The notes under the pieces are model-generated. The model was not told the DNA's origin, did not search any database, and saw only the letters and a program-made list of their open reading frames with translations. From Parafrankia discariae (GTDB taxonomy: Bacteria > Actinomycetota > Actinomycetes > Frankiales > Frankiaceae), in the NCBI RefSeq assembly GCF_000373365.1, contig NZ_KB891246.1, forward strand, positions 1 through 32,779: 32,779 nucleotides of DNA. Reading direction: 5' to 3'. Shown piece by piece: positions 7,228-9,762 of the stretch. The translations under genes were made by a program, and so were the position numbers. Every line of letters starts with the position of its first letter. Position 1 is the first letter of the stretch.

Positions 7228-7257
7228 TTGACCGTTCTATCTCTACATATCTAGATT
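7228..7257 (+). promoter_or_regulatory. Promoter of the PadR operon with palindromic site
   Basis: TTGACC (7228-7233) and TAGATT (7252-7257), 18 bp apart, are a good sigma-70-type pair in an AT-rich patch. The -10 overlaps ATCTAGAT (7249-7256), a perfect 8-bp palindrome that may be the core of a PadR operator. Transcription would start within a base or two of the GTG at 7265, which has no ribosome site, so the first message is predicted to be leaderless. Confidence 0.6.
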
Positions 7258-7264
7258 TAGCGTC

Positions 7265-7597
7265 GTGGCTGGACTGTTCCGGGTGACCCCCGCGACGCTC
7301 GACGTTCTCGAGGCACTTCTCGACGGCGAGGTCGAGCCGTACGGCCTGGCGATCGCCAGGCAGGCCGGCCTGGCGACCGGCAGCGTGTTCCCGATCCTGG
7401 CCCGGCTCGAGCGCGTCGACTGGATCGCCTCGAGCTGGGAGGACACCGATCGCCCCGGGCCGCGTCGGCGGCTCTACCGGTTCACCCCGGAGGGGATGGC
7501 CGGTGCCCGGGTGCTGCTCGCCGAGCGCCGTGGTCGCGCCGCCGGGCAACGCCGCGGGCTGGGCGGATTCACCTCGGCGCCGGAAGGTGCCCGATGA
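7265..7597 (+). CDS. PadR-family transcriptional regulator
   Basis: 110 residues forming the winged helix of PadR proteins: LFRVTPATLDVLEALLDGEVEPYGLAIARQAGLATGSVFPILARLERVDWIASSWED, then the wing RPGPRRRLYRFTPEGMAGARVLLAERR. GSVFPILARLE occupies the place of the usual GTVYPLLRRLE recognition helix. It is of the short (PadR-s2-like) kind without a long C-terminal dimerisation helix. The GTG start lies only eight bases past the -10, so translation is probably leaderless. It overlaps the next gene by ATGA (7594-7597). Small PadR proteins next to actinobacterial membrane proteins usually repress their own operon. The signal is unknown. Confidence 0.88.
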   Translation: MAGLFRVTPATLDVLEALLDGEVEPYGLAIARQAGLATGSVFPILARLERVDWIASSWEDTDRPGPRRRLYRFTPEGMAGARVLLAERRGRAAGQRRGLGGFTSAPEGAR

Positions 7598-9762
7598 CCG
7601 CGAGCCCGGGCGCCGTACCGCCCGCGAGTCCGGCCGCCGTACTGCTCGCGAGTCCGGCCGCCCCGCCCCGGACGCCGGCCCGGCGGGCGATCGTCGGCGT
7701 CGTCACGGGCTTCTACCTCGCCAGCGCGCTGGCCAGCGTTCTTCCCGTCGCCCCGGTCCATGCGGTGGCCGGGGCGGGCGCGGTTCTCGGCCTGGTCCTC
7801 GGCGTGCTCACGGTGCGACACCCGCGGCTGTCCAGGCCCTTGCTGGGAGCGGTGCTCGGCGCGCTGGCCGGCTACGTGGCCCACTCCGCCTACCCGGTCG
7901 GGTCTGCCCTGAACGGCAGCGACTTCCTCTACGACGACGGCCTCGACCTCGACTTCGGGTACAGCCCGGCGTCCTGGATGCTGCTGGGGGCCGGCGTGGG
8001 GGCGGCTGTCGCCACGGCCGTCGAACGTGGCTCGCGGCTCGCGTCGCCGTTGCTGGGTGTCGTGCTCGGAGGACTGGCCGGCCATCTCGCCGAGTTCGCC
8101 TGCCGGCCCGGCGACGCCACCTTCGACTCCGACTACGGGCTGCGGTGGTTCACCGACGGGGCGACGTCGACAGCCGTGATCGGCGGGTACGGACCGCTGT
8201 ACACCGCCGCCGGTTCCGCGCTCGGACTGTTGCTCGGCCTCGTCGCCCACGGTCGACCCCGGTGGAAGACGGCCTCGCTCGGACTCGCGCTCGGTGTGCT
8301 CGCCGGCAGCCTCGGGTCTGCCGCCTACCGGGTCAGCTACGCGACTTTCGACACTGCCGGCGATTACCGTGATTCGGGCTTCGTCGGTGACACCGTCGCC
8401 GGTTTCCCCCCTGCGGTCTGGATTGTGGCGGCGGCCGCGACCGGCCTACTGATCGGTGCGCTCGCCGGCCGTTTCCCGTCGTTCGTGGCGCCGTTCTCGG
8501 GCCTGGCCGCCGGCGCCTTTCTCGGAGGCGTCGTCTTCGCCGCCATGCGGTCGACGTACATGTTCGGCTCGGATGCCTCCTTCACCGAACCGGCGAGTCC
8601 GGTTGGATCCGCGTTCCAGGTCGTCGTGCGGGGCCCGGGGCCAGTAATCGGAATGGCGGCTGGTGCCGTGTTCGGGCTCTGCTTCGGGCTGCATGCCATC
8701 TTCCGTTTCCGTCTCGCGGCGTCCGGACTCGGCCTGGCCGCTGGTGCCGCCGTGGGCATAGCGGTCGCCTCCGCCTGTCAGAACTTCAGGAGTCTCCAGA
8801 CGGCGCCACTGGCCCCCGCCGACGACTACGTTCCCTTTGTCATCCTCGGAGCGGGAATGGTGCTCGGCACGGTTCTCGGGCCACTCGCCGACCATCGGTC
8901 ACGGCTCGCCAGACCCCTGGCGGGAGTGGCCCTCGGCGTGATCGTCGGCTACGTGGCGAGCAATACCCTGGCCGCCGCGTACCTGCTGGCCGTCCACTAC
9001 GACTACCAGCACCCGAGCGACACCCGGTACGCCACCGTCGTGGGCCTGGGCGTCGGCGCTGCCGCCGGGCTGGCGCTGGGCCTGCTCGCCACCCTGCGCC
9101 CCCGTTGTGTCACCACCGTGTCGGGTCTGGCGCTCGGTCTGCTGGGGGGCGAGGTCGCCTGCTTCGCCGTGCAGGTCCTGTTCCTGGACCGCGGCGGTGA
9201 CGGTTATGCGAGGAACTCCGTGTACATCGAGCTCGGCTGTTGCGGGGTCGGGGCGGCCGCCGGGCTGGTTCTCGGCGCGTTCACCCATCGCCATCCGCTG
9301 CGGGGCCGTCCGTGCCTCGGCGCGCTCGCGGGTGCGTTCGTCGGGTCGATGGTGTGGCTCCTGTTTCCCGGAGCGCCACCAGTCGAGACAGCCGCGGTCA
9401 GCGCGGTGGTGGGAGCGGTCGCCATCGCCCGCCGACCGAGTTCCGGGTGGGGGCTGGTGCCAGTCGGGGGCGGCGCGCACCGCACCGCGCTGACCGCGTG
9501 GCGACTCGCCGGAGAACTGCGACCCGGCGCCTTCGCTCACGGCCTGGTCCGGGCCGCGGCGGCCGTCGCGGCCGACGACCGGCGGCAGGCGCGTTACGCC
9601 GAGGAGTTCCGCGCGACTCTCGCCGAGATCACCGGGCCGTTGGCCTGCCCCCGACGGCTCTGGTGCGCGCTGACGATCTTCGCCAACGCCGCCCTGCTGC
9701 GCGCCGAACTGGGCCGAGCCGCCGAGCCTGGTGCCGACCAGCCACCGAATGATTTCGATTAG
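7594..9762 (+). CDS. Polytopic membrane protein built of eight two-helix repeats
   Basis: A 722-residue protein not assigned to a named family. After a Pro/Ala-rich N terminus and a first membrane helix (about 33-51), eight repeats begin near residues 60, 132, 205, 279, 355, 419, 486 and 551, each 64-76 residues long. A unit is a Gly-zipper helix (GAGxxLGLxLGxL), a short basic turn (such as RHPRLSRP, DHRSRLARP, TLRPRC), a second Gly-rich helix (PLLGxxLGxLAGYxA) and a variable loop. In the early repeats the loops are rich in Asp and Tyr (FLYDDGLDLDFGY, ATFDSDYG, ATFDTAGDY). By the positive-inside rule the basic turns are cytoplasmic and the acidic loops outside, giving about 17 helices. A soluble C-terminal tail (about 613-722) contains DDRRQARYAEEFRATLAEITGPLACPRRLWCALTIFANAALLRAEL, resembling tails of other PadR-linked actinobacterial membrane proteins. 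Coupled to PadR by an ATGA overlap. Channel, transporter or sensor: undecided. Confidence 0.85.
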   Translation: MTASPGAVPPASPAAVLLASPAAPPRTPARRAIVGVVTGFYLASALASVLPVAPVHAVAGAGAVLGLVLGVLTVRHPRLSRPLLGAVLGALAGYVAHSAYPVGSALNGSDFLYDDGLDLDFGYSPASWMLLGAGVGAAVATAVERGSRLASPLLGVVLGGLAGHLAEFACRPGDATFDSDYGLRWFTDGATSTAVIGGYGPLYTAAGSALGLLLGLVAHGRPRWKTASLGLALGVLAGSLGSAAYRVSYATFDTAGDYRDSGFVGDTVAGFPPAVWIVAAAATGLLIGALAGRFPSFVAPFSGLAAGAFLGGVVFAAMRSTYMFGSDASFTEPASPVGSAFQVVVRGPGPVIGMAAGAVFGLCFGLHAIFRFRLAASGLGLAAGAAVGIAVASACQNFRSLQTAPLAPADDYVPFVILGAGMVLGTVLGPLADHRSRLARPLAGVALGVIVGYVASNTLAAAYLLAVHYDYQHPSDTRYATVVGLGVGAAAGLALGLLATLRPRCVTTVSGLALGLLGGEVACFAVQVLFLDRGGDGYARNSVYIELGCCGVGAAAGLVLGAFTHRHPLRGRPCLGALAGAFVGSMVWLLFPGAPPVETAAVSAVVGAVAIARRPSSGWGLVPVGGGAHRTALTAWRLAGELRPGAFAHGLVRAAAAVAADDRRQARYAEEFRATLAEITGPLACPRRLWCALTIFANAALLRAELGRAAEPGADQPPNDFD
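7771..9429 (+). repeat. Eight-fold internal protein repeat (about 200 bp per unit)
   Basis: This is the coding stretch of the eight Gly-zipper units described for the 722-residue membrane protein. Spacing between unit starts is 72, 73, 74, 76, 64, 67 and 65 residues. The DNA has diverged, so the duplication shows mainly at protein level: GAG-LG at each unit start, a basic turn about 16 residues later and P-L-G-LG-LAG after it. Confidence 0.75.

Follow-up and report, generated by a model that had tools for sequence, protein, structure and literature searches.

Results

The padR locus and its promoter

The window, the whole 32,779-nucleotide stretch that was analysed, comes from the 7.9 Mb genome of Parafrankia discariae, which has Frankia among its family relatives. 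It holds a two-gene unit in which padR is followed by the gene of a large membrane protein, the two being joined by an ATGA overlap (Table 1). The coordinates and the overlap given by an earlier, sequence-only reading of this DNA proved correct. The padR product scores 37.9 bits against PF03551 (cut-off 27; E 1.8e-9), which places it in the PadR family. The promoter in front of the gene supports a leaderless start, as had been proposed, and a similar layout was seen by eye in relatives.

The spacer of this promoter contains the element CTATCTCTACATATNTA, a candidate PadR operator. In a search that allowed at most two mismatches, and that further targets may escape, six of the seven genomes searched had one copy each, in every case before padR, and the reversed pattern had no match in the seven. 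At the same tolerance the element is absent from G024, where the pair is a short form. We rejected an operator dyad as evidence at the window's padR promoter, since the dyad test was not significant there. The same test was also not significant at 10 of 14 other promoters of PadR genes paired with the C-terminal tail described below; the other four (L041, L054, L086, L092) have clear dyads directly before the start codon.

Table 1. Positions of the padR unit and its features in the window
Feature	Position	Strand	Basis or remark
Promoter of padR, TTGACC-18-TAGATT, 7 nt to GTG, leaderless type	7228..7257	+	1 found against 0.1 expected in shuffles
Element CTATCTCTACATATNTA in the promoter spacer, candidate PadR operator	7237..7253	+	Conserved
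padR, stand-alone winged-helix regulator of 110 aa	7265..7597	+	GTG start
Membrane protein of 722 aa	7594..9762	+	ATG start
Tandem repeat of 24 bp, 2.7 copies	7598-7662		Encodes the N-terminal low-complexity region of the 722-aa protein
Eight Gly-zipper helix pairs (A-turn-B), residues 51-592	7744..9369	+	Leave-one-out HMMs, charge and zipper counts
Tail domain, residues 641-706 (66 aa), R-Y-x-E-E core, probably cytoplasmic	9514..9711	+	Conservation and AF2

Eight Gly-zipper repeats in the membrane protein

The membrane protein begins with an N-terminal helix, continues with eight two-helix units and ends with one further helix and a C-terminal tail. With borders drawn by eye, the units start at residues 51, 124, 199, 272, 346, 411, 479 and 543 (steps of 64-75), and their mean pairwise identity is 34%. 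Scores of the units with leave-one-out HMMs ranged from 17.9 to 53.2 bits and averaged 33.4, whereas 15 unit-shuffled sets had means of -0.8 to 1.6 and segments of the MFS protein of the window a mean of 0.5; the eight repeats reported from the sequence alone are thus borne out. A crude ungapped self-diagonal scan of the whole protein gave nothing above shuffles, as is to be expected when indels separate the units. When the units of four homologues were compared with those of the window, the best match was the same-numbered unit in only 4, 2, 3 and 2 of 8 cases, so that exchange between units is possible.

The motif GxxxG occurs 34 times (7.7 expected) and is present on 17 of the 18 helices, and GxxxGxxxG occurs 17 times (0.7 expected), a number that none of 2000 within-helix shuffles reached. 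The 18 helices were assigned from hydropathy and by eye; the sequence-only reading, which proposed a check for 16-17, had overlooked one extra helix at each end of the array as well as the conserved C-terminal tail. Inner turns contain 17 K/R against 1 D/E and outer loops 9 K/R against 21 D/E, the latter being rich in acidic and aromatic residues, and the same basic-inner, acidic-outer trend recurs in four homologues, in agreement with the sequence-only reading. We infer that both termini are cytoplasmic; the basic inner turns place tail and PadR on the same side of the membrane.

No Pfam or NCBIfam family, transporter families included, exceeded its cut-off for this protein, in which the sequence-only reading had likewise recognised no named family. 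Sub-threshold Pfam rows were PF13488 (E 0.024) and PF13886 (E 0.02), and a PDB sequence search with the full membrane-protein profile returned no match at E <=1. The AF2 model of the full 722-residue protein, built from five sequences, has a pLDDT of 37.5.

A conserved tail on varied proteins

Among five sequences, 41 of 66 positions of the tail are invariant, compared with 109 of 349 in the helices and 44 of 179 in the outer loops. An AF2 model of residues 620-717 from 27 sequences has a mean pLDDT of 80.2 and reaches 90 or more at 50 of 98 residues. It predicts helices at model residues 25-40, 43-58 and 65-91, and a less confident one at 9-22; the means of 10-residue blocks are 90-94 over model residues 31-90.

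The window tail had no Pfam match at E <=1, and the 27 tails gave three chance-level Pfam families, HAAS not among them, and six chance-level NCBIfam families, the best row being E 0.007 for a single tail. A PDB search with the tail profile returned two chance rows (best E 0.21) and Foldseek no match to the tail model at E <=0.001. VIA found no usable relative of the model; 2O3L, a solved HAAS structure, is absent from its rows, though absence there does not exclude a family. Among titles and abstract starts of the open-access literature, we recognised no description of such a module.

Profile A4 detected the tail at E <=0.001 in at least 23 of 393 genomes of the class and at least 12 of 137 genera, with the row of L093, at least, looking spurious. 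Profile A5 gave at least 3 of 386 genomes of the phylum, the window's own and G513 included; we regard the G513 match, which has two stops inside, as spurious. These counts are lower bounds because the best 14-15 candidates were scored per genome. The tail is fused to NB-ARC (L021), DUF4407 (L041, E 4.2e-46) and HD_4 (L089, E 5.9e-22) domains and, as read from translations, to single or multiple transmembrane helices and to LPAGT-type repeats.

Pairing of the tail with PadR

PadR played no part in the tail search profile; 24 of 31 distinct tail genes nonetheless lie directly behind a PadR gene on the same strand (L001-L005 and 19 more). This total omits the spurious weak rows L040, L043, L045, L047, L093 and L105 and takes L042 and L083 as one gene. 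The tail frame overlaps the PadR gene in 23 of the 24 pairs, and that of L036 begins just behind it. For seven tail genes no PadR lies upstream in the stretch read (L035, L089, L037, L048, L049, L032, L038); L037, L048 and L049 are LPAGT-type proteins, and L032 and L038 are fragments. In G006 and G009, PadR is followed by LPAGT-repeat genes that run off their contigs, so two of the apparently PadR-less tail genes probably do have one.

The long LPAGT/LPDGT repeat proteins (L048, L037, L140, L159) have repeats that fall at contig ends, and in the same genomes some contigs bear the C-terminal tail while PadR lies on different ones. Two further neighbours are of other kinds. A gene with a Pfam match to ECF sigma factors lies directly before the tail-bearing gene at L020/L035 (G006:C440), which suggests that regulators besides PadR may also be served by the tail; and the tail-HD_4 protein L089 (G273) follows an MmyB/XRE-type regulator, also assigned by Pfam.

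The P. discariae genome has 19 PadR matches, 16 of them above the cut-off. Three PadR genes are paired with a tail, each of a different type. The two pairs outside the window lie convergently inside a stretch of about 3.5 kb (G000:C153; L068, 2824-6297) and have two other tail types. Weak rows of an earlier tail profile, obtained in a tiny search space, fall inside two PadR-bearing ORFs of this genome (L065, E 1.6e-4; L071, E 0.0012).

The reverse search, by PadR profile with E <=1e-16, found at least 30 places; they are spread over 24 of 276 genomes, and 12 of them are known pairs. Among the 18 further PadR loci (L150 was already known), four are followed directly by a match to the tail profile (E below 1e-3), nine by a divergent three-helix-like module (judged by eye) and two by LPAGT genes, while at L141, L143 and L162 no module was recognisable downstream. 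At L143 (G087), PadR is followed by an HD_4 ORF without visible tail. Aligned with hhalign, a set of 11 divergent modules matched the tail with 93% probability (E 2.8e-7), which none of 150 shuffles equalled, a value carried in part by L144 and L149, which already matched the tail profile; the other nine were picked by eye. A PrsW protease and a TPR protein belong to this set. L154-L157 alone gave 20% (E 0.0011) against the tail and 0.2% against HAAS. As for the shuffle controls, one run of 100 had an anomalous maximum of 132.66, and a repeat with 150 new shuffles a maximum of 11.75. Several proteins with tail or tail-like modules behind PadR have other known parts: a PrsW-type intramembrane protease with the module near its N-terminus (L148, G050), a TPR protein (FxSxx-like; L153, G018), Rho_N (L152, G166) and a RelA/SpoT-like protein (L144, G127).

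Distances between PadRs correlate with those between their tails (r = 0.86 for 24 pairs, 0.75 for 18 thinned pairs, neither value being reached in 5000 permutations), a correlation that still includes the shared ancestry of linked genes. In a tree of 20 of the 24 tail-PadRs, 20 HAAS-PadRs and 13 further PadRs from the P. discariae genome (from 13 of 14 loci tried), the tail-PadRs form one side of a branch with support 97/88, present in 98% of bootstrap trees, from few alignment columns.

Distribution and decay of the repeat protein

The membrane protein was matched in 9 of 35 genomes of the family, the window's own counted. Four copies in genus g2 (Frankia) are full-length, with 38-42% identity, and the array can be aligned along its whole length in these four genomes and the window; four other copies are reduced or tail-only. 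In G017 and each of the four full copies, the PadR-ending frame overlaps the membrane ORF by ATGA or GTGA. Over flanks of 1.5 kb to about 4 kb round L003, L006, L010 and L023-L025, padR and the membrane gene were the only ones of eight tested window genes to be found, save for one short TetR match in L023. In these flanks, and for the genes tested, the conserved padR neighbourhood that the sequence-only reading had proposed to look for consists of the pair.

Within the window's genus, G017 (L006) encodes a product of 237 residues that keeps PadR and the tail together with a single unit. In its gene, helix A of unit 1 joins helix B of unit 8, which is consistent with a collapse by in-frame recombination between repeats. 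A closed ring or pore, suggested earlier from the repeat count, is a possible assembly of the array, but an eight-fold ring is not kept everywhere, the short L006 copy being a putative gene. In Frankia tisae (L026) only a 3' part is left, in two frames; G019 has only the last part of about 54-57 residues; and the copies in G011 and G019 are truncated or frame-shifted.

In the six pairs formed by the four genus-g2 copies, dN/dS is 0.11-0.52 for the tail, 0.11-0.26 for PadR (first 93 codons) and 0.59-0.83 for the transmembrane part, values that come with low dS and short regions. The repeat array thus varies faster than PadR and tail.

Discussion

A possible membrane sensor that regulates itself

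What had been observed from the sequence alone is confirmed, and the reading of the locus as a regulated module is strengthened, its centre now being the tail rather than the array. We consider it probable, on balance, that the membrane protein is a self-regulating sensor in which the tail conveys to PadR what state the repeat array is in; the pair would act as a switch from membrane signal to transcription. Control by PadR and the idea of sensor units, both put forward by the sequence-only reading, gain support, short of proof, from the gene linkage, the promoter element and the tail-PadR pairing elsewhere. PadR would repress its own operon at CTATCTCTACATATNTA, by analogy with the autoregulated LltR and LstR of Listeria as presented in the part of PMC6624303 drawn on here. 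The tail would bind PadR. If the repeat array changed, whether through stress on the membrane, through lipid packing or through a compound that acts on membranes, the tail could be altered, and PadR might then be released from DNA or held off it. Titration of PadR by the tail would set the level of the membrane protein. Given that the element was seen only before padR, the membrane protein is probably both the sensor and the main product of the response. The single branch of tail-PadRs, the correlated PadR and tail distances and the stronger constraint on these two also favour the scheme; the dyad result at the window's promoter, the seven tail genes for which no PadR lies upstream in the stretch read and the three PadR loci lacking a recognisable module count against it.

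Food for debate is the fast evolution of the transmembrane part. The tail and PadR are constrained while the membrane side is freer, as a sensor might be, with relaxed constraint as the alternative; indeed, the high dN/dS of the transmembrane part and the decay in G019, G011 and G017 may reflect weak constraint instead of sensing.

An exporter or channel repressed by PadR is an unlikely alternative, in which the 18 helices would form a transport path, PadR would bind a toxic ligand in the style of LmrR and the tail would be a structural end. PadRs do often control efflux pumps, as with LmrR/lmrCD and LadR/mdrL (examples in the cited portion of PMC6624303), and a polytopic product with acidic and aromatic outer loops would suit such a role. 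However, no transporter family exceeded its cut-off and the PDB held no sequence match, a transport path fails to explain the same tail on NB-ARC, DUF4407 and HD proteins, the transmembrane part evolves faster than PadR and tail, and L006 keeps PadR and tail with one unit, not eight.

We give a small chance to the idea that the protein is a membrane-packing or scaffold protein, a ring or sheet formed by a single Gly-zipper chain that serves as an effector of stress, with PadR sensing by other means and the tail docking other partners. The very high density of Gly-zippers would fit, as would the finding of CTATCTCTACATATNTA only before its own operon, which makes the membrane protein the only known product. 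This idea leaves the tail-PadR pairing and the correlation of their distances unexplained, however, and the AF2 model with pLDDT 37.5 is uninformative on a ring. That the gene is a decaying or selfish, repeat-rich and lineage-specific ORF, weakly constrained and of no regulatory role, seems very improbable: the patchy occurrence (9/35), the truncation or frame shifts seen in G011 and G019, the collapsed copy in G017 and a transmembrane dN/dS of up to 0.83 speak for it, but PadR and tail are more clearly constrained, the promoter element is conserved and the array aligns end to end between the window and the four genomes with full copies.

The tail as a possible partner module of PadR

A second reading concerns the tail itself, and here we see an even chance that it represents an unnamed actinobacterial three-helix partner module of PadR, which either stands apart from HAAS or is a distant branch of it, with the eight-unit array as one sensor among others. 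As part of this reading, the module would link one PadR clade to Gly-zipper arrays, DUF4407 proteins and NB-ARC ATPases, and in divergent versions to PrsW proteases and TPR proteins, and would occasionally serve regulators of the ECF sigma or XRE type. The array of eight units would possibly be a membrane gauge that can be tuned, recombination being able to change the number of units. For many PadRs the sensed signal is obscure, and a recognisable partner domain would show which neighbour feeds each PadR. The Frankiaceae case would offer an unusual repeat sensor of 18 helices and, to compare it with, a naturally occurring variant that has a single unit.

Comparison with known systems

PF13488 (Gly-zipper) and PF13886 (TM7S3/TM198-like) resemble the array in their Gly-rich membrane helices, a likeness below the curated cut-offs that shows no common architecture. 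The LltR-lmo0600 locus of Listeria is closer in layout, with a PadR gene followed directly by the gene of a polytopic membrane protein. There, according to the part of PMC6624303 relied on here, the operon is autorepressed and loss of the repressor strongly derepresses it. It differs in being a firmicute locus with a DUF1700 protein and a further DUF4097 gene, and that part of the paper describes no eight-unit Gly-zipper array for lmo0600. The DUF1700 type has in turn been placed in the HAAS superfamily (PMC11237479, in the part consulted).

The same part of PMC11237479 presents the HAAS-PadR dyad, which its authors offer as an alternative to two-component systems. In both this dyad and the tail-PadR pairs, a three-helix module on varied transmembrane or intracellular sensors is encoded next to a PadR gene that stands alone, and the three consecutive alpha-helices by which HAAS is defined are predicted for the tail as well. 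Each of 20 HAAS loci that we fetched has a PadR in its stretch; HAAS was found in 33 of 98 genomes of the class, and PF22564 (HAAS) had no match over its cut-off in the P. discariae genome. The differences are several. The GxP motif of the third HAAS helix occurs in 0 of 27 tails as opposed to 11 of 12 HAAS modules (C-terminal 45 residues). The window protein carries its module at the C-terminus, unlike HAAS, which typically sits N-terminal to multi-TM domains (again in the part of PMC11237479 used). Tail-PadRs stand on a branch separate from HAAS-PadRs. As for coupling to PadR, invariable by definition in HAAS, it is seen in 24 of 31 tail genes, and two others are probably cut by contig ends.

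A faint similarity nevertheless exists. Over helices 1-2, hhalign gave the tail and HAAS a score of 20.9 (E 0.0019, probability 14%), where the best of 100 column shuffles reached 13.0. The divergent modules matched HAAS with 61% (E 8.3e-5) and, in the other direction, 40% (E 3e-4), with 0 of 150 shuffles as high. The tail may thus be a remote relative of HAAS, to judge from these profiles. Lacking the HAAS profile and the GxP motif, yet faintly similar, it would work like HAAS without being filed as such, and since the divergent modules are nearer to HAAS, a wider superfamily is possible, which speaks against a wholly separate tail. The HAAS-PadR idea of a kinase-free pathway from membrane to DNA would then extend to a second, or a far wider, type of module.
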